The position numbers and the translations under genes are program-made. A DNA stretch of 23,793 nt. It comes from a virus. The DNA is taken from IMG/VR virus record IMGVR_UViG_3300042879_000676, positions 1-23,793 of that record, one strand, 5' to 3'. Positions 1,082-23,793 of this stretch are shown here, piece by piece. Numbering within the stretch: the stretch's first letter is position 1; each line of letters starts with the position of its first letter. The notes under the pieces are model-generated. The model saw only the letters and a program-made list of their open reading frames with translations, did no database searches and was not told the origin of the DNA.

Positions 1082-1315
1082 TTAACGTGAAATTTCTTCC
1101 CAGTCCATTGATCCGTAGACACCCTCATTATTAGTTTTAGCTGCAAGCACAAGAGAAATCTCAAACGGCGTTCCGGTCAAACTGTTTCTCTCTAGCTGAA
1201 AGCTGAATAGTGCTTCTTTGAGAATATCCACAGACACGCTGGTGCTTTGCGTCGCCGTAAAGTAACCAGAGGCAAGGATTCTACCACCTGAGGTGCCATT
1301 TACCAAGCCTTGCAA
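1082..1315 (-). CDS. Small conserved-looking phage protein, non-ATG start overlapping upstream gene
   Basis: This 77-codon frame (TTG at 1315) ends with TAA 15 nt before the next gene. Its sequence looks like real protein rather than a shadow: a Gly/Ser/Thr-rich beta-type start (NGTSGGRILASGYF), then KEALFSFQLERNSLTGTPFE, ending DWEEISR. It lies in the -1 frame relative to the upstream 1036-residue gene and overlaps its last codons. No ATG exists in this frame near the start. The frame stays open upstream to a stop about 30 nt further on, so a CTG at 1336 (AGGG 5 nt before it) is an alternative start. Expression probably depends on translational coupling with the upstream stop, or on a frameshift; no classic slippery heptamer is visible. 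Function is not recognised. Its place between two virion-type genes suggests a structural role. Confidence 0.6.
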   Translation of the reverse strand: MQGLVNGTSGGRILASGYFTATQSTSVSVDILKEALFSFQLERNSLTGTPFEISLVLAAKTNNEGVYGSMDWEEISR

Positions 1316-4300
1316 GACCAGTAGCGCGGCATCCAGCGCGGCCCTGGGTTATCGCAGTTGTGGCGCGCGCGAAAATTGCTGCGGCGACCCGGAATGTTCT
1401 TCTTGATCGTCATATTGGGGTCACCAAAGCGAACGATCACAACCTTACCAGCACCGTTTGTCGTATAGACAGCCGACTTCTTAGGGCCACCAGGTGTGCG
1501 GAATGGCTTGTTCAGAGTTACCTTGCGACCTTGATATTCAGCCTCGGTGATCTCCAGCCCCTCTTCGACATCATCGCACTGGCAGTTGCCACCGCAACCA
1601 CAACCAGCATCATCTTCCTCTTCAACTGAAGGATGATTCGCATAACCAAATTGTGCGCGAATGCCTAGCTGTTGAGCCGTTGGTGCATCCATGATCCCAG
1701 GAGTGAAATCTTCGGATAGCTCTTTCTGCTCACGAATACCAGCTAGTGCCTTGCGGACATCCTTGTACGTCTGTGGTGATTTACCTGGGTCCTTAGCTTC
1801 CTGAGTCTCCCACGGTACAGGCGCAAGATAGCGCATATCTTGTTTAGATTCATTTTGACCAGGTGTGTCCTTCTTATAGATGCTTACAACTGAGTCTGTC
1901 CCAGTCTCACGATGACGCGGGTTTGGGTCACCCTCTACGCGAACTCGCTTGTGAACCTTGCGATAGACTATGCGACCATCAGGTAGTTTCTCTTTCTTAT
2001 ACTCAAAGTCGGCTGCGCGAACAATCTGTCCGAATGCTTCATTGACAGACTCCTTGCGAACTCTAGAAGCTAGATCCTTGTCAGCGCCACCCCAGGTACC
2101 CTTACCCTTCGTGATAAACGAATTGACGCGCGCATATGCCCACTGTTGCTGATTTGCACCAGGGCGATGACCCGTCTTCCATGCAGCCATACCACGATTA
2201 TAAACCTGACGAAGAATGCCAATCGGGATACCAGACTTCTCGGCCTTCTTAGCGAGACCTTGATCGGCCGCTTCTTCGACCGAAATCTTTGGCTTAACAT
2301 GTTTAATTAGTTTACCAACTTTACGATCTTTGACTGGGTCTTTACCATTGTATTCGTGTGTTCTAGTTTCATAGTGATCCATACCATCATCATCGAGGTG
2401 ACGTACACTATGAGTTATCTTTGAACCATCAGAGGATACATGAATGGACTGCGCCCGCCCATGCTTATCTTCTAAATGCTTTTTGACATGAGCTGGGACC
2501 CTCCAGCTCGCATTTCCGTCCTTAGTTGCTTCTGCAATTCGCTCGACTTCTTCACTGCGCTGCATCATTTTCTTGCGGAGATCCTGAACCTTCATTGCTT
2601 CGCGCTCCCTATCGTGCTTTCTATCTAGAGTCTCTTTTTCTCTACGTTGTTTATCCGCCACTAGCTTTGATGGCATGTCTGCTGATTCAAGATCATAGCG
2701 TGATGTTGGTACTGCGTGACCTAATGGCTGCACAGTTGGATCCAACTGAAATGGTACTACATTCTTGAATAGATTTCTATAGCCTGCGGCCTCTGAGAAT
2801 TCTTCGAACTTCTTATTGTAAGATGCAGACAGATATGAATATCTGACAGGCAGCTCAGGTGGGTTGAACTGCACATCATTTGCATTGTAATTGTCACCAA
2901 ATTGCTTGCGATACTTCAGAGTATGCACGCTAGTCTTTGTCTTTTTGTTATCACCAGGTGCCGACTTATATGCGCTCGGGTCGCTATCAGACATCTTTGT
3001 CTGTCTGTTGAATTGTGCAGCGCGAGCAGCGGCGGTGCCTTTGCCTAACCCAGCAAAATATTTGCGGCTTTCCAATGATAGCTCCTTGTCACCAAGATCG
3101 GCGCGTGCAGACCATAGTCTCTGTAGATCGCCGCGCGCACGTAGCAGCTTATACACTATATTCTCGACGCTATATTCGCCACCCTTAGCAAGTCCTGAGC
3201 TACGCATCTGACGTAGCTCGGCCAGTAGTGACTCAATCTCTGTTGCATCATTTGATCTTACGGCCGTATCAATCTCATCTTTGTATTGACGATACTTGCT
3301 ACGAACGCTAACGTCATCCATTGACGGCTTCTCATTCGTCGGGTGCTTGACCCACTTGTCATTCATAATGCTATAGACACCAGAGCTAACCGCTGGCTCC
3401 TCAGTCGGCTCGATGTATAGCTCGACCTCAAACCCGCGAATGTGGATCTTGTGTGTCTGGTTCCATAGGCTTTTCTTTGCATCAAATAGCTGGCGCATAT
3501 ATGCGCGCATTGATGCTCCACCCTTTAGCTTCACAACAACATGCAGGTCTATGTCGCTATGCTGCGTGTAGTGATAGCTTGCATTTGAACCTGTAAAGAC
3601 GATGTCCTTGACATCAAGCGGGACACCAACAAAGCGAATGAAGCTGTCAGCAATCTTGCGTAGCTGAATGCGAACCTCAGGCATGATGCGATCATCTGCA
3701 AACAGCGACGGGTTAAGCTCATCATGGGTACCGATGGCTTCGCTTGACTTGGGTTCGTCATCACCGTCTGGGTCATCTTCACGCTGTAGAGATAGCGCAC
3801 TCTCGGGCGGTACGCGATCTGCTGGTGTGAATGCTGATGTACCGCCACCAAACATATCATATTCTTCAACATGACCCATACCAGTGCGCACCATCTTCAT
3901 CACCCTATGTGCCGATGAGCGTAGCTTTTCTGGTAGGCCTGACTTGAAGCCTTCGTGATTGTTGTTCTTTGCATGTTCGCGCATCTTGGATGCTGACATG
4001 CCTTCAGCGCCTTCAGCGTCCGGGTCACGCTCGCCCGCAGAATGAACATGAATCTTGTCAAAGTGATATTCTTTTCCGTTGTAGCGATGCAGAAGCTCAT
4101 GCATTTCTTTGTGGCGATCACCACCGACAACAACGTGAACCTCTTTGCGCCCCTGCTTGTGCAGATGCTTCATCACATCGATGATAGTCTTATGTGGCCC
4201 AGACTTGACAGAATCACCAAAGGCCTTGCGAGCAAGCCCGACCTTCTGCGCGTGGGAGAGTGGGTTCTTTTTGCGATCCTGAGTGTGAGATAGGTGCACC

Positions 4301-4410
4301 TCGGCATCTGCGCCGTGCTTCTTTGCTGTAGAGTGTAGATGATCTACTAGCTTCTGATGACCTATGGTCGGCGGGTTCATACGACCGAACGTAATAGCAA
4401 CAGGCTTCAT
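1300..4410 (-). CDS. Large multidomain virion-type protein: cytidylyltransferase-like, Pol-beta-type nucleotidyltransferase, DUF5824-like and C-terminal FRARHNC module
   Basis: 1036 residues from an ATG behind GGGAGGG. Residues 1-180 form a cytidylyltransferase-like Rossmann domain, with (T/H)xGH at 15-18 (TIGH) and an ISxxxxR-like SASKMR at 139-144, as in NMN adenylyltransferases. Residues about 235-450 hold a Pol-beta-superfamily nucleotidyltransferase: GSN at 274-276 and SDIDLH at 285-290, with D286 and D288 as metal ligands and a possible third carboxylate in FEVEL (327-331). Residues 715-787 (VYNRGMAAWKTGHRPG, WAYARVNSFITKGKGTW) resemble the DUF5824 family. A cysteine cluster CGCGGNCQC lies at 937-945. 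The last 80 residues (VRFGDPNM ... RRSNFRARHNCDNPGP ... YWSCKAW) match a C-terminal module I know from many T4-like phage virion proteins. Between domains are I/L/V/F-x-E-A strings (E540, E627, E713, E791, E956) that look like prohead-protease sites. Domain calls are firm for both transferases. Substrates and packaging are inferred. Confidence 0.85.
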   Translation of the reverse strand: MKPVAITFGRMNPPTIGHQKLVDHLHSTAKKHGADAEVHLSHTQDRKKNPLSHAQKVGLARKAFGDSVKSGPHKTIIDVMKHLHKQGRKEVHVVVGGDRHKEMHELLHRYNGKEYHFDKIHVHSAGERDPDAEGAEGMSASKMREHAKNNNHEGFKSGLPEKLRSSAHRVMKMVRTGMGHVEEYDMFGGGTSAFTPADRVPPESALSLQREDDPDGDDEPKSSEAIGTHDELNPSLFADDRIMPEVRIQLRKIADSFIRFVGVPLDVKDIVFTGSNASYHYTQHSDIDLHVVVKLKGGASMRAYMRQLFDAKKSLWNQTHKIHIRGFEVELYIEPTEEPAVSSGVYSIMNDKWVKHPTNEKPSMDDVSVRSKYRQYKDEIDTAVRSNDATEIESLLAELRQMRSSGLAKGGEYSVENIVYKLLRARGDLQRLWSARADLGDKELSLESRKYFAGLGKGTAAARAAQFNRQTKMSDSDPSAYKSAPGDNKKTKTSVHTLKYRKQFGDNYNANDVQFNPPELPVRYSYLSASYNKKFEEFSEAAGYRNLFKNVVPFQLDPTVQPLGHAVPTSRYDLESADMPSKLVADKQRREKETLDRKHDREREAMKVQDLRKKMMQRSEEVERIAEATKDGNASWRVPAHVKKHLEDKHGRAQSIHVSSDGSKITHSVRHLDDDGMDHYETRTHEYNGKDPVKDRKVGKLIKHVKPKISVEEAADQGLAKKAEKSGIPIGILRQVYNRGMAAWKTGHRPGANQQQWAYARVNSFITKGKGTWGGADKDLASRVRKESVNEAFGQIVRAADFEYKKEKLPDGRIVYRKVHKRVRVEGDPNPRHRETGTDSVVSIYKKDTPGQNESKQDMRYLAPVPWETQEAKDPGKSPQTYKDVRKALAGIREQKELSEDFTPGIMDAPTAQQLGIRAQFGYANHPSVEEEDDAGCGCGGNCQCDDVEEGLEITEAEYQGRKVTLNKPFRTPGGPKKSAVYTTNGAGKVVIVRFGDPNMTIKKNIPGRRSNFRARHNCDNPGPRWMPRYWSCKAW

Positions 4411-6557: not shown

Positions 6558-7097
6558 TTACTCAAACTGTTTCATGTAGCCTTCGATAAACTCGGGCGGA
6601 ATAGGCTTCTTAAATCGAACCTCTGTGGCAGCATAATATTCTGAATCAAACTTATCTGGGTTCTTAGCAACCCACTTTGCATATTCGTTTCTGTCCATCA
6701 TATGCTTCTTGGCATCACCCATATTACCACGCAGTTCGGCGTCCATGTGACGCTCTGCCCAGTCTGCGGGGATTTTCAGTTTGATGACAGATCGCTGACT
6801 ATGAGGAACACCAACTGCCTTTGAACCAGCGCCTCTGAAATTTGCTTCGCCACCTGCGCCAGACATAGAAGCATATGCGTGCGCTGTTCTAGCATCGGGT
6901 GTAGTAGAATACATTCCAGTCTTAGGGTCGGGTCTATTGATACCCGACTTTAACATCGACTGAACATTGCGGTCATGGGTGCCGTGATAGAGAATGTAGT
7001 GATCACCTTCTCTCCACCACCCACGACGCTTAGTCGTTTTATCAAATGGTAGTCTCTTAGCTTCTACCTGTTCTGTTAACCATCTTTTGAACGACAT
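6558..7097 (-). CDS. Predicted ADP-ribosyltransferase (H-Y-E class) with capsid-targeting-like N-terminus
   Basis: 179 residues. ATG 7097 is chosen over the in-frame GTG at 7103 because AGAGG lies 5 nt upstream of it. The core fits the diphtheria-toxin/PARP-like ADP-ribosyltransferase fold: YHGTHDRNVQSMLKSGI (37-53, H38 as NAD-binding histidine), then MYSTTPDARTAHAYA (62-76, Y63 or Y75), and late ATEVRF (157-162, E159 as the catalytic acid). The same fold includes RNA 2'-phosphotransferases (KptA/Tpt1), a possible alternative. T4 carries ADP-ribosyltransferases (Alt, ModA, ModB) that modify host RNA polymerase and other proteins; those are R-S-E type, so this would be a different branch. The N-terminus MSFKRWLTE resembles T4 internal-protein targeting peptides. 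A late promoter-like box lies about 25 nt upstream. The fold is likely; target and packaging are inferred. Confidence 0.75.
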   Translation of the reverse strand: MSFKRWLTEQVEAKRLPFDKTTKRRGWWREGDHYILYHGTHDRNVQSMLKSGINRPDPKTGMYSTTPDARTAHAYASMSGAGGEANFRGAGSKAVGVPHSQRSVIKLKIPADWAERHMDAELRGNMGDAKKHMMDRNEYAKWVAKNPDKFDSEYYAATEVRFKKPIPPEFIEGYMKQFE

Positions 7098-7121
7098 GGC
7101 CACCTCTGTATTCTGTAGCCA

Positions 7122-15585: not shown

Positions 15586-15602
15586 GGCTGATTTAATCAG
15601 CC
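15586..15602 (-). promoter_or_regulatory. Hairpin overlapping the hsp20 stop codon
   Basis: GGCTGAT-TAA-ATCAGCC is a perfect 7-bp stem with a 3-nt loop that contains the TGA stop of hsp20. It stands 6 nt upstream of the terminator stem, giving two consecutive hairpins at the 3' end of the hsp20 message. It may protect the end from exonucleases. Confidence 0.55.
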
Positions 15603-16055
15603 GTTTAGTTGTTGGTTTTCTGTTGATGGATCTGTGATATCCACCTTGCGAGGCTTCTTATTATCGGGGATAATATTCTCCAGCCACACCTTCAAGAGAC
15701 CGTTAACCATCTCAGCATTTTTTATCTCGATGGTATCAGCCAGATGGAATTCACGGCGGAAGGCGCGATCTGCGATTCCCTTGTGGAGGAAGGTCGGACC
15801 ATTCTCATCGTTCTTAGCGTGGCCGCGGATCAGAAGCTTGTTGTCATGAATTTCAAGCTCAAGGTCTGAGCGACCGAAACCAGCAACGGCAACTTCGATC
15901 ACATACTTGTTATCATCAACCTTGACGATATTGTAGGGCGGCCAACCTGGGACAGCCTTAGCTAGGCTCTCAGAAGCCTCAAATAAACGCTTTTGAATGT
16001 CGTTGAAACCGATTGCATACGTGTCCAGCTTGGACAGATCGGGAAAATAAACCAT
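15597..16055 (-). CDS. Small heat shock protein (Hsp20/IbpA-like)
   Basis: 152 residues. The alpha-crystallin domain spans about 40-135: PYNIVKVDDNKYVIEVAVAGF, LELEIHDNKLLIRGHAKND, FRREFHLADTIEIKNAEM, then the hallmark NGLLKVWLEN. A C-terminal KVDI supplies the I/V-x-I motif used for oligomer assembly. Such proteins hold unfolding proteins without ATP; copies are common in T4-like phages of cyanobacteria and other aquatic hosts, where a role in capsid assembly or infection stress is supposed. The ATG follows AAGGAG at 7 nt. The gene is flanked by its own late-like promoter and a terminator, so it can be an independent transcription unit. Confidence 0.93.
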   Translation of the reverse strand: MVYFPDLSKLDTYAIGFNDIQKRLFEASESLAKAVPGWPPYNIVKVDDNKYVIEVAVAGFGRSDLELEIHDNKLLIRGHAKNDENGPTFLHKGIADRAFRREFHLADTIEIKNAEMVNGLLKVWLENIIPDNKKPRKVDITDPSTENQQLNG

Positions 16056-16534: not shown

Positions 16535-16984
16535 TCACTCCTTTACATTATTACCAATAGTAGATTGCAAGAACCAACCATGCTTCTTATGCGAAGCTAA
16601 CCGACCCGCAAGAAAGTCGGAAACATCATATGCACCAGCATTCTCAGCTGCTTCATATGCAGTCTTAATCGTCATGATAACCTTTTCATTATCAAGCGAT
16701 AGATTCATAAGCATCGTTCTAGCATCAGGTACTGTGTCTAGTTCAATCAGCGTAGTTAGCTGTCTAAAGCGATTCAGACTACCCGGCGCATATGCGCCTG
16801 ATGATCGAATGAATTCTGCAAGTGGGTCAATTGCACCACTCACGTCACCATAGATCAGACCAAATAGCTCATGATACTCTTTGAAGTTCGGACCCTGCAC
16901 GTTCCAATGATAGAACTGAGTCTTTACGCCAAATACAAACGTATCCGCCAGAGCGACCTTAAGCGGTTCGATAAAATCAGCCAT
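16535..16984 (-). CDS. dps: Dps/ferritin-like DNA-protection protein
   Basis: 149 residues, close to Dps length (about 150-170). The signature FYHWNVQGPNFKEYHELF (24-41) and DPLAEFIR (53-60) give the inter-subunit ferroxidase ligands: H26, H38, D53 and E57 line up with E. coli H51, H63, D78 and E82. The residue at the E. coli D67 position is glycine (G42), so one ligand is missing. The basic N-terminal tail used for DNA binding by E. coli Dps is absent. It would form a dodecamer that oxidises iron with peroxide and may protect phage DNA. Start overlaps the regA stop (TGATG) behind AAGGGG. Confidence 0.92.
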   Translation of the reverse strand: MADFIEPLKVALADTFVFGVKTQFYHWNVQGPNFKEYHELFGLIYGDVSGAIDPLAEFIRSSGAYAPGSLNRFRQLTTLIELDTVPDARTMLMNLSLDNEKVIMTIKTAYEAAENAGAYDVSDFLAGRLASHKKHGWFLQSTIGNNVKE

Positions 16985-18729: not shown

Positions 18730-18946
18730 GTTCATCCTCATCATCATTTAATGTATCGGTTGCCAGACTGTCAGCGATGTTATAAAATATCATCGCCGCT
18801 TGATCAGTACCTAAACTTTTCACATAACCCTTGGTAACCACTGCTGCCAGGGCCGCAAGTACTTCAAGCTCGTGACCTTGATTATGGGCTGACTCCACTA
18901 GTTTGTGGAGCCAGATCATAAGAGTGGTTGTAGAAACCTCGTTCAC
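18710..18946 (-). CDS. Small acidic-tailed protein between gp45 and gp44
   Basis: 78 residues from GTG 18946, preferred because it overlaps the gp45 stop as GTGA; GTG 18964, six codons earlier, is possible. The body is helical (TTTLMIWLHKLVESAHNQG, LEVLAALAAVVTKGYV, AAMIFYNIADSLA) and the end is acidic (DTLNDDEDEHGDD). The helices contain alternating hydrophobic faces rather than a membrane span. T4 has no gene between 45 and 44, so this is an insertion in a very conserved pair. A role as a clamp or loader accessory is guessed from position only. Confidence 0.7.
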   Translation of the reverse strand: MNEVSTTTLMIWLHKLVESAHNQGHELEVLAALAAVVTKGYVKSLGTDQAAMIFYNIADSLATDTLNDDEDEHGDDRQ

Positions 18947-19596
18947 TTCTTCGGAGTCGAACACGCGACCCAGTATTCAATGTCACCAGACTTGGACTTG
19001 AAGTGAGCCATACCATTAGTCACACTCACATCATAGTCGCGCGGCAGAAGCTTGAGGTTTTCAATTGCAAACACTGCCTTGTAGTCATTCGAAGCATCAC
19101 CGACCTCATATTCAGTATTGTCGGAGATGTCCTCGAGGACATTGGTGCCAGAGAGATACGACTTACCGTTCTTGCCATAGAGAAGAACGTTCGGCAGCCC
19201 AAGCCCGGCAGTCAGCTTTAGCACCCAATTGAGAGCTTCATTGCTGATGGTGAACGTGGCATCAACACTCGGAAGCTTCGGGTCCTTTACAGGCGGGTGC
19301 GTGACAGTTGCGATACCGCCGTGAAGGACCCGCGTGGCTGCACGCGAATTGCTTACGACAGTATGCTTATCCGTAAATTCAAGATTCGGACTGTCATAGG
19401 CCGTAAGCACCATGATAAACTTTGTCAGGTCATTGATCGCACATTCGATCGGGAATGTCTCTTTGACGTTAGCCGAAGCCAAGATGGTGCTCTTGGAATG
19501 GATCGTTCGAAGATTATTACCCGGGCGAATGAGAAGCGATGGGTTGATGGCTGCAAAGTTCTTCAGGATTTCGATAGTTTCATTTGAAAGTTGCAT
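18943..19596 (-). CDS. 45: Sliding clamp, DNA polymerase processivity factor (gp45)
   Basis: 217 residues from ATG 19596 (GTGGAG 6 nt upstream); T4 gp45 has 228. The start MQLSNETIEILKNFAAINPSL parallels T4 MKLSKDTTALLKNFATIN. The repeat structure of two PCNA-like domains fits (ECAINDLTKFIMVLTAYDSPNLEF; FTISNEALNWVLKLTAGLGLPN; a KLLPRDYDVSV strand near the end). The trimer encircles DNA, tethers gp43, and in T4 also activates late transcription with gp33 and gp55. That function makes it relevant to the late promoter-like boxes in this window. A sigma70-type promoter directly precedes the gene. Confidence 0.95.
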   Translation of the reverse strand: MQLSNETIEILKNFAAINPSLLIRPGNNLRTIHSKSTILASANVKETFPIECAINDLTKFIMVLTAYDSPNLEFTDKHTVVSNSRAATRVLHGGIATVTHPPVKDPKLPSVDATFTISNEALNWVLKLTAGLGLPNVLLYGKNGKSYLSGTNVLEDISDNTEYEVGDASNDYKAVFAIENLKLLPRDYDVSVTNGMAHFKSKSGDIEYWVACSTPKK

Positions 19597-19624
19597 GATA
19601 TACTCCACTGTTTAGAACATGACG

Positions 19625-20620: not shown

Positions 20621-20875
20621 TTAGACCGAAGCAAGGGCCCGATAGCCTGCAGCGATAACCTCGCGCCGCGGCGCACCGAGGCGATACATCGTCACCTCGT
20701 GGTTGTTACCCAGCGTCTTGCGGTTAGCATAGACGGCGTAACCCTTGAAGCGCAGGTCAGACGCCGTGGCGCTCAGGTTCTGAATACCGAAGCGGCTACG
20801 AGCCTGACCCTCGGTGATGTCACGACCGGACATCAGGTAGTTAAGCAGTCGTTCAGTCTTGGTAGTCTTAGCCAT
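20621..20875 (-). CDS. Winged-helix DNA-binding protein
   Basis: 84 residues from ATG 20875 (MAKTTKTERLLNYL). An upstream in-frame ATG at 20893 lacks a ribosome binding site and adds six residues; for 20875, AAAGG lies 10 nt upstream. The layout is a helix (TERLLNYLMSGRDIT), the recognition helix-turn-helix (EGQARSRFGIQNLSATASDLRFKGY) and a wing (AVYANRK ... HEVTMYRLG), as in small winged-helix repressors. Closely similar proteins are known in T4-like cyanophages from memory. It probably binds DNA as a dimer; whether it regulates phage or host genes is unknown. It follows cobS and is closed by a strong terminator. Confidence 0.82.
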   Translation of the reverse strand: MAKTTKTERLLNYLMSGRDITEGQARSRFGIQNLSATASDLRFKGYAVYANRKTLGNNHEVTMYRLGAPRREVIAAGYRALASV

Positions 20876-20920
20876 TGTATATAAACCTTTCATGTTGGTT
20901 GTGTTGTATAAAATGTCCCA

Positions 20921-22075
20921 TTAGAACGGGATTTCATCACCCATCGGTTCGGCAGGGGCCTCTGGAGCAGTCGGCTCCGGAGTCTTGGGCAGGGTCGGGT
21001 CGACCTTGCGATACAGATCGAGGAAGGACTTCTTAGTCTCCTCGTCAAAGCGATTGATGCACATTTCGATAGCCTTGGTGCGATCTTCAAAGAGCTTGTA
21101 GGCCTTGATAATGTGCGTCAGACGGCGCGTGGAGATAACTTCATCGGCAGCACCCTCAGCAAAGGTGCGACGAATAACGTCAGCCCAGGCCACAAGATGT
21201 TCGATAAAACCATCATGCTCAGCCGTGCGATTCTCAAACTGAGCCTGAAGAATCTTAGTCTCAATCTTGGTATTCGGGTATTCTTGTTCGATGGTCACCG
21301 GGAAACGCTCAAGGAGCGCATCGTCAAGCATCGATGCTGCGACATAGCGACCGTCGTCAGAGCCACGACCCTTCGTGTTAGCAGTCACAAAGATGTTGAA
21401 GCCTTCAGCCGGGTAAATGACCTCGCCGGTCTTCTTGACAAAGTAAGGCTTACCTTCAAGAATACCCTGAAGGCACATAACCTTGGTCGGGTCAGCGCGG
21501 TCAGCCTCGTCAAGCAGCATGATCGCACCCATCTCCATTGCGCGAAGCACAGGACCCTTGAGGAACTTGGTCTCACCCTCAATCAGACGGAAGCCACCGA
21601 TCAGGTCATCTTCATCAGTCTCGCGCGACATCTGAATGCGGATCATCTGACGCTTCTGGCGCGCGCAAGCCTGCTCGACCATGAACGTCTTGCCGTTACC
21701 AGACAGACCCGAGATAAACACCGGAAAGAAAGTGCGGCTAGAAATAATCTTCTCAACGCTCTTGAAGTCGCCAAACGGGACGTAGGTCTTGTCCTTCTCG
21801 GGGATCATCACGTAGTCATGTTCGGACATTGCGTTCGGGTCGAACTTCTTGTCCTTACGTTGAGTCATCGGAATAACCTGTGCTGCGTGGGCGATGGACG
21901 GGAGCTGATACTTGCCATGGGCAATTGAAGTAAGAGACGAGAAAAAGCTGTGGCGCGGCTTCGCAATACCAAGCTCGTTAGCCAGCTCGATTAGAACCTT
22001 CTTAGCCACAACAGCTTGCTCGCCAAAGCGAGTCGCAGCAGTTTGCAGCAGCAGATTACGATTGTCGATGTTCAT
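20921..22075 (-). CDS. cobS: CobS-like MoxR-type AAA+ ATPase with SSB-like C-terminal tail
   Basis: 384 residues from ATG 22075 (GGAG 6 nt upstream), rather than the longer frame, since the promoter start point is near 22094. Walker A GLSGNGKT is at 123-130, Walker B LLDEAD at 187-192, then FVTANTKGRGSDDG (sensor 1) and DALLERFPV (arginine finger region). This matches CobS, the ATPase of aerobic cobaltochelatase, and related MoxR proteins that work with a VWA partner; such a partner (22122-23793) is directly upstream. CobS is well known in T4-like cyanophages, yet no large CobN-type chelatase is nearby, so a remodelling role other than cobalamin synthesis is likely. A Pro/Ala/Glu-rich linker leads to the last residues GDEIPF, identical in style to bacterial SSB tails. 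Confidence 0.9.
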   Translation of the reverse strand: MNIDNRNLLLQTAATRFGEQAVVAKKVLIELANELGIAKPRHSFFSSLTSIAHGKYQLPSIAHAAQVIPMTQRKDKKFDPNAMSEHDYVMIPEKDKTYVPFGDFKSVEKIISSRTFFPVFISGLSGNGKTFMVEQACARQKRQMIRIQMSRETDEDDLIGGFRLIEGETKFLKGPVLRAMEMGAIMLLDEADRADPTKVMCLQGILEGKPYFVKKTGEVIYPAEGFNIFVTANTKGRGSDDGRYVAASMLDDALLERFPVTIEQEYPNTKIETKILQAQFENRTAEHDGFIEHLVAWADVIRRTFAEGAADEVISTRRLTHIIKAYKLFEDRTKAIEMCINRFDEETKKSFLDLYRKVDPTLPKTPEPTAPEAPAEPMGDEIPF

Positions 22076-22100: not shown

Positions 22101-22129
22101 ATTATATAAGGTAACTGGGTATCAGTCAA
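22101..22129 (-). promoter_or_regulatory. Sigma70-type promoter TTGACT-17-TATAAT before cobS
   Basis: TTGACT (22124-22129) and a perfect TATAAT (22101-22106) with a 17-bp spacer on the minus strand. The -35 overlaps the stop of the VWA gene (22122-22124). RNA would start near 22094, giving a leader of about 19 nt before ATG 22075. Confidence 0.85.
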
Positions 22130-23793
22130 TGGCAACTTTGGTCGCCTTGCCGGCAATCATATCGATGAAGCGAACCAGCATGGACCGACTCATGGTCCGT
22201 CGGTTGCTTGCCTTAATGAAAGCCTTGGCAAGTCGATTGGCAGTCACATTACCGTCAATATCGTCCAGGTTCATGTCCTCAACGTCCAGATGCTTGCCGC
22301 CCATGATGGCGAAGAATTCTTTCGCGCCAAGAACCTCGGAAAGAACAAGATGCTTCTCCTTACGAAGGCGAACAAGATCATCGGGTCGAAGATTGGTGAT
22401 TTGATTGATATCGGATGCACTATGAATTAGACGAAACACAGCCACGTTAATATTCTGCTCGGCGCGAAGATTCCGAAGCAGGAATGCCGTTTGCTCATGG
22501 TGCTGGTCGATATAAGATTGCCTCATCGTCCGCTTGTCGCGGAGAATCCTGGCACCATGCATACTACCTCGCCCATTCACATTAATACCATCAGACTCAC
22601 CATCAGTCAGAAAGATAGAATGAACGACATCAAGCTTGCTGTCCTTTCGAAAATCACGAATGATGGCGTGCGAAAGAATGATGGTATCATTCAGAGGCGT
22701 CGAACCAAGCGAGAAAAAATTATGAAAGATATCGGTGTAGGAATAGTCACGATCCCAGCTGCTACGGCGAACACCAGTCGTATGACCGTATTCATGCATC
22801 AGCTTGGCCATATCGGCATATTCTCTACGCGACATATTGCTGGTAAACAATTCAAGCAGACGAAAATTGCTGCCATGAATTTGAATGGTATTTTCTTCAT
22901 TACCGATATGAATCTTATTACCTGCGCGCATCCACTCCTTGCAGACACCAGTGGTGAATGCATAGACCTTGTGCGCGATGCCAGTCTTTCGGCAGAATTC
23001 AACCAGCGAAAGAAGCTGCTGAATCGTACCATTCATATGGCCTTGCATCGAGCCAGAGAAGTCGATGAACATTACCATACCGTGGTTCTTACCGTTCGGG
23101 AGAACCGTAAGCCGCCGAAAGATATCCTCAGAATACTTGTAAGAATGTACCTTGCTCGGGTTGATGATGCCAGTCTTAGCATCTTTGGCGCGAGCATAAG
23201 AGTCGGCAGCCTTCTTCATTTCGAATTCCTTGACCATGTAAGACACGACCTTAGAATTGCGCGAAATGAATTCGCGGTACCGTTCAGTCGCACCAGACTG
23301 GGTCGACGGCGATGCGGCATTCATCGCACCCACAAGCGATTCAAGAATTTGCTTGTACGGCACGATAAAGCCCTGATATTCATCACGAACCTCAGGCACA
23401 TTGACATAGCGCACGTCCTTGAGGAGGCGAGAGTCAATATGCTTCTTGGTCAGATTACTATTCATGGTATCTTGGGTCTTGGAATCAAGATCGGTGGTAT
23501 TCAGCCCAGACTCACCCTTACCACCCTTGGTCTTGCTGTTACCATCACCATCTTCATAATCACCATCAAGGTCGATGTCCATATAATCACCATCACCGTC
23601 GCCTTCAACAAGATCAAAGGCGCCGATATCGCCTTCCATTGATGCATGTTCGTCGCGGCGTTCTTTGGCAAACTGAAGAATTTCACGCGCCAGAGCAACC
23701 ACATCTTCAAAGGTAGAAGTGGTTTCCATCTTCAGGATAAACTTGCGCTCATCATCAGCGAACGGGACATCGATGACCTGCCCAGCCTTGAAG
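22122..23793 (-). CDS. VWA-domain protein, CobT-like partner of CobS (5' end outside window)
   Basis: The frame is open to the window edge, 21 codons beyond the Met at 23729 (VIDVPFADDERKF precedes it), so the true start lies outside. Numbering from that Met, a strongly acidic stretch (43-63, Asp/Gly-rich) separates a helical N-terminal part from the rest, as in CobT. The C-terminal von Willebrand A domain has the MIDAS motif DFSGS (223-227), a downstream threonine region GSTPLNDT and an aspartate in FLTDGESDG. These bind a metal ion and a partner protein. CobT/CobS and RavA-ViaA-like pairs act as VWA-AAA+ remodelling machines; the adjacent cobS-like gene makes the pairing convincing. The target is unknown. 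A different annotation seen for such phage proteins is peptidase, for which I see no motif. Confidence 0.87.
   Translation of the reverse strand, partial: FKAGQVIDVPFADDERKFILKMETTSTFEDVVALAREILQFAKERRDEHASMEGDIGAFDLVEGDGDGDYMDIDLDGDYEDGDGNSKTKGGKGESGLNTTDLDSKTQDTMNSNLTKKHIDSRLLKDVRYVNVPEVRDEYQGFIVPYKQILESLVGAMNAASPSTQSGATERYREFISRNSKVVSYMVKEFEMKKAADSYARAKDAKTGIINPSKVHSYKYSEDIFRRLTVLPNGKNHGMVMFIDFSGSMQGHMNGTIQQLLSLVEFCRKTGIAHKVYAFTTGVCKEWMRAGNKIHIGNEENTIQIHGSNFRLLELFTSNMSRREYADMAKLMHEYGHTTGVRRSSWDRDYSYTDIFHNFFSLGSTPLNDTIILSHAIIRDFRKDSKLDVVHSIFLTDGESDGINVNGRGSMHGARILRDKRTMRQSYIDQHHEQTAFLLRNLRAEQNINVAVFRLIHSASDINQITNLRPDDLVRLRKEKHLVLSEVLGAKEFFAIMGGKHLDVEDMNLDDIDGNVTANRLAKAFIKASNRRTMSRSMLVRFIDMIAGKATKVAID

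Follow-up and report, generated by a model that had tools for sequence, protein, structure and literature searches.

A bacterial SSB-like C-terminal tip recurs on CobS-like MoxR ATPases of T4-type phages and may serve docking on host SSB-interacting proteins

The C-terminal tail of bacterial SSB recruits repair and replication enzymes, and the locus described here raises the question of why a phage ATPase should carry a tail of the same kind and what such a tail would bind. Phage cobS genes are often annotated as vitamin B12 or auxiliary metabolic genes. The window, i.e. the whole stretch of DNA analysed, is a 23.8 kb virus record of a T4-type phage whose DNA polymerase shares ~51% identity with Synechococcus myovirus polymerases, and its gene order of CobT-like, CobS-like, gp45, gp44, gp62 and regA, with small genes interspersed, is that of cyanophage S-RIM12. 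This genomic place, a replication operon, is at odds with the vitamin B12 or auxiliary metabolic annotation. The surroundings of the CobS-like gene are as follows.

18943–19608, minus strand: gp45 sliding clamp (Pfam and PHROG), replication-operon context
20621–20893, minus strand: winged-helix protein (HTH_39, Pfam), directly downstream of the CobS-like gene, context
22122–23792, minus strand: CobT-like VWA partner, truncated at its N-terminus where the window ends (PHROG_459 'peptidase', 1.1e-98; MIDAS DFSGS at ~23049–23063), adjoining the CobS-like gene on its upstream side

The ATPase itself comprises the following elements.

20921–22075, minus strand: CobS-like MoxR AAA+ ATPase, 384 aa (translation; Pfam AAA_5, 7.8e-20; PHROG_249, 8.1e-104; AlphaFold and Foldseek to CbbQ/NorQ)
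21686–21709, minus strand: Walker A (GLSGNGKT, residues 123–130), conserved in alignments
21506–21523, minus strand: Walker B region (residues 185–190, ending DE), with D189 and E190 invariant in alignments
20945–20998, minus strand: Pro/Ala/Glu-rich linker, residues 360–377, mostly predicted disordered (AlphaFold pLDDT), hypervariable in homologues
20924–20944, minus strand: SSB-Ct-like C-terminal tip MGDEIPF (stop codon 20921–20923; translation), recurrent in homologues

With both Walker motifs, an AAA_5 core, a MoxR fold and an adjacent VWA gene, the protein has the features of a MoxR AAA+ ATPase. PHROG_249 carries the label 'porphyrin biosynthesis'; a role as true cobaltochelatase CobS in cobalamin biosynthesis is rejected on the TIGR01650 equivalog score of 61.6 bits, far below the cut-off of 558.55. 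No OB-family match was found in Pfam or PHROG, only AAA+, so the protein is not a bacterial SSB. Midasin, CobS and NorQ are its best solved-structure matches by sequence, and the AlphaFold model (mean pLDDT 82.5) has a MoxR-like core for which Foldseek returned 6l1q (CbbQ) and 9qh6 (NorQ with the NorD VWA domain) as top PDB matches. The phage pair thus shares the AAA_5 core and the adjacent VWA gene with NorQ-NorD, CbbQ-CbbO and CobS-CobT, but differs in the N-terminal metallopeptidase-like motif of the VWA partner (HEVGH, HEIGH, HEVSH or HEVAH in the listed full-length relatives), in the SSB-Ct-like tail of the ATPase and in its location in a T4-type replication operon. The MoxR-vWA-metallopeptidase pair of group 2.2 jumbo phages has the same architecture; passages of PMC7824862 on that pair propose a role in virion assembly and mention no SSB tip.

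By translation, the ATPase ends in ...VDPTLPKTPEPTAPEAPAEPMGDEIPF before the stop, also given as ...KVDPTLPKTPEPTAPEAPAEPMGDEIPF, with positions 20921–20962 encoding the final 13 codons and the stop. Acidic residues followed by (I/V/L)-P-F stand at the free C-terminus (GDEIPF) behind a flexible linker, as in an SSB-Ct-type tip; pLDDT falls below 50 at residues 366–372 and 376–384, and for most of the last 19 residues. Translation and predicted disorder bear out the first-pass annotation, which had reported MGDEIPF after a Pro/Ala/Glu-rich linker. The tip is retained in seven near-identical IMG/VR relatives whose C-terminus is intact, and changes are confined to the linker (KTPEPT versus KAPEQT).

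Across a set of 204 homologues with complete C-termini, representing 156 distinct tails, P[FW] ends 68 tails, compared to 2 of 636 neighbouring ORFs (Fisher 1e-51), and the stricter [ILVM]P[FW] ends 32 of 156 compared to none of 636. Because a tip-bearing clade (L010) was the seed of one homologue scan, the resulting 44% is not an unbiased prevalence; thinning at 90% identity leaves the tip in 32 of 91. When the last 25 residues of each tail were shuffled, a mean of 0.45 and a maximum of 3 tails ended in P[FW], so that the observed excess is ~150-fold. Chance or composition as the source of the tip is ruled out by the neighbour-ORF comparison and the shuffled tails. The tips mostly stand behind at least two acids (DDIPF, EEIPF, DEDIPF, DEVPF, EEMPF, DDIPW, DLTPF, DLRPF), and the genome-assembly homologues add the ends NIPF, QVPF, PPPF, ETPF, ECPF, KCPF and ACPF. 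The residue at -3 is most often I (18), V (13) or T (11), followed by R, S and Q (5 each), and in 36 of the 68 tips the proline is preceded by neither an aliphatic residue nor Met. The last three residues are encoded by 45 different codon combinations. The core is alignable as far as a conserved LYxxxD, after which an acidic linker begins; linker and tip together span 14–36 residues, the linker being hypervariable and unalignable, yet the tip is always at the very end. Two ~150 kb relatives have 183 gene calls each, and in both of them only CobS ends in P[FWY].

FastTree and IQ-TREE trees of ~90 non-redundant CobS cores require 14–15 changes of the P[FW] state, at least 10 of them forced by supported branches, against ~26 when the states are shuffled. 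On these trees the tip follows descent in clusters, yet is reconstructed as gained or lost many times, at least 10; the nearest tree neighbour of the window protein (L021) is without it. By sequence, the tip is a short linear motif of SSB-Ct grammar that recurs and is maintained by selection.

The SSB ends read from 17 genomes and Dehalococcoidia (DDDIPF, DEEIPF, DEIPF, DDDVPF, DDDLPF, DDLPF, EDLPW, DEEPF) follow a grammar of acids, a mostly aliphatic residue, proline and an aromatic. Bacterial SSB-Ct (PF00436) and the CobS tip have in common a disordered linker, acids, a terminal (I/V)-P-F and a free carboxylate; the CobS tip differs in sitting on an AAA+ ATPase without an OB fold and in a freer -3 position, where T, R, S, Q and C also occur. 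LPF, common among the bacterial SSBs read, is absent from the CobS tips. The resemblance to the bacterial SSB tip noted in the first-pass annotation holds up, both in this shared grammar and in its recurrence in diverged homologues. SSB-Ct pockets bury the terminal Phe, with a basic lip holding its alpha-carboxyl and a basic ridge contacting the upstream acids (PMC10164576). The SSB of phage HK620 functions with an NDYPPF end, i.e. -3 tolerates change (PMC5928155), and the looseness of CobS at this position is therefore compatible with SSB-Ct-type binding. The rare terminal Trp is common to bacterial SSB (EDLPW) and CobS tips (DDIPW). It was seen in the SSB of a Chloroflexi MAG (EDLPW; L253/G035 and L274) and in three CobS tips (DDIPW/EEIPW; L179, L183, L186), raising the question of whether Trp-ended CobS tips might track Trp-ended host SSBs.

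The phages' own ssDNA-binding proteins are ruled out as the model for the tip. The gp32 proteins end in acidic-[LMF][SA]YFxxLA in 8 of 8 relatives, whether the CobS tip is present or not, in agreement with the first-pass statement that gp32 is without this tip, and none of 24 contigs has an OB-fold SSB (PF00436) over the family cut-off. A motif scan for viral ORFs of at least 60 residues ending in three acids and IPF yielded at least 78 proteins. Among the matches listed, 16 match the SSB profile built here and 4 are CobS, while others are DUF669/SSB-like proteins, a Sak4-like protein (L377) and an SF2 helicase (L368), next to several families without assignment. The same tip hence stands on phage DNA-metabolism proteins, OB-fold SSBs and others, which suggests a portable motif used on several kinds of phage proteins; the other identified carriers are mostly ssDNA-binding or recombination proteins, whereas CobS is a MoxR chaperone-type ATPase. 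The non-SSB carriers (within L324–L403) also include a 77-aa PHROG_1811 family (L333, L353, L363, L384) and Pam3 gp34-like proteins (L371, L340, L362). A search of the literature, mostly of papers open without subscription, returned nothing on point for mimicry of SSB-Ct among phage proteins other than SSBs.

The tip is lineage-specific, since none of the 13 CobS proteins checked from isolated cyanophages carries it (ETI, ESN, FEV, TNF, NDQ/NLLNDQ and others). Together with distant homologues in Klebsiella, Rhizobium, Vibrio and Listeria phages, which also lack it, these isolates rule out the tip as a universal feature of phage CobS; about half to two-thirds of the homologues are without it. 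The terminal IPF, whose conservation the first-pass annotation proposed as a check, recurs in the form of a P[FW] end and is missing from many homologues. Unrelated C-termini, which that annotation would have counted against its proposal, occur in many homologues including the 13 isolates, and by this criterion the proposal lacks support as a general rule. A motif-less host does not explain the absence in cyanophages, since a Synechococcus MAG and a Prochlorococcus single cell encode SSBs ending in DEEIPF and DEIPF, respectively. psbA, sought as a cyanophage-host marker for the tip-bearing phages, was found in none of 28 contigs. Some tip-less CobS tails (L049, L054, L046, L069, L031, L048, L246) share a second recurrent motif, approximately [IL]D.[IA]L[DS].A[LI] (IDNILDNAI, DEILDEALDNA, LDGALDTALN, DDILSDALKND), by eye unrelated to the gp32 tails. 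A further CobS, from a 188 kb Nonlabens xiamenensis sequence (L248), has a tail, QVETLFNS, identical to that of Prochlorococcus phage P-TIM40 and is probably a cyanophage contaminant in the assembly.

Based on these comparisons, we propose that the phage MoxR/VWA machine displays SSB-Ct-like peptides and docks on host SSB-interacting proteins, which is the best-supported reading and one that we consider somewhat probable. The repeated retention or re-evolution of the tail among related phages suggests docking onto host enzymes. The MoxR-family ATPase would work with the adjacent metallopeptidase/VWA (CobT-like) protein, and its disordered acidic tail would end in a peptide that has converged on the C-terminus of bacterial SSB, several tips being exposed at once by a ring of about six subunits. 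Given the known SSB-Ct biology, SSB-Ct pockets would be the natural receptors, into which the terminal Phe and carboxylate of the tips may insert; PriA, RecO, RecQ, RecG, DnaG, ExoI and Pol III chi are examples of candidate targets. The tips may in this manner bring host SSB-interacting proteins to the machine. Most speculatively, the captured proteins might be remodelled or sequestered during phage replication, given that DNA coated by the phage's gp32 would not recruit them. A harsher variant, in which CobS and CobT form a machine for targeted unfolding or proteolysis and the tip is a bait for host replication-restart and repair enzymes that are stripped or degraded, while the phage gp32 replisome is spared through its different tail, we regard as improbable.

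Alternatively, the tip may be an internal docking element for another phage protein, namely gp45 or, through its VWA/MIDAS, the CobT-like protein, with the SSB-Ct likeness arising by convergence without host targets. The CobT-like gene is adjacent and its MIDAS could take an acidic ligand, but CobT-like partners are found both with and without the CobS tip, and CobT alignment columns have no excess association with the tip over controls, so that co-variation with CobT is rejected. For the clamp, the CobS gene sits by the clamp genes, and gp45 columns have a mild excess association with tip presence over CobT, the CobS core and gp44, which remains as a lead that is uncorrected for shared ancestry. 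Yet the gp43 tails of these phages take an LxxFF form (TLARFFT, SLESFFA, NLLGFF) unlike DEIPF, and we reject the tip as a clamp-binding peptide of this form. Taken together, internal docking is possible, if rather unlikely.

It is quite unlikely that the tip blocks rather than recruits, i.e. that it is a soluble competitor titrating SSB-interacting proteins off host SSB without the ATPase acting on them. Multivalent SSB-Ct-like ends would compete with SSB, and E. coli cannot do without SSB-Ct interactions (PMC10164576); a simple decoy, on the other hand, would have no need of an AAA+ ring and its metallopeptidase/VWA partner, and high abundance would be required of it. It is very improbable that the end is a generic acidic-aromatic tail lacking any specific ligand: the tails that lack P[FW] come close to those with it in acidity (40% versus 43% D+E) and some end in other aromatics, but terminal P[FW] far exceeds the tails' own composition and recurs across supported branches.

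Docking on host SSB-interacting proteins would join two known parts, a MoxR/VWA machine and an SSB-Ct-type tip. The host SSB-type tip on many phage CobS proteins provides a concrete clue to the targets of the phage machine, and could represent a general way for gp32-using phages to reach host SSB-interacting proteins.

Elsewhere in the window, all on the minus strand, a 1036-aa ORF (1300–4410) resembles a multi-domain fusion, with a cytidylyltransferase-like start (TFGRMNPPTIGHQKL) and, after it, a nucleotidyltransferase-like stretch (FTGSNASYHYTQHSDIDLHV). A small protein at 6558–7103 with YHGTHDRNVQSMLKSGI...YSTTPDARTAHAYA recalls, as an impression only, the ADP-ribosyltransferase fold. The replication region also encodes a ferritin/Dps-like protein (16535–16984; Pfam Ferritin) and, by eye, an Hsp20-like ORF (15597–16055).
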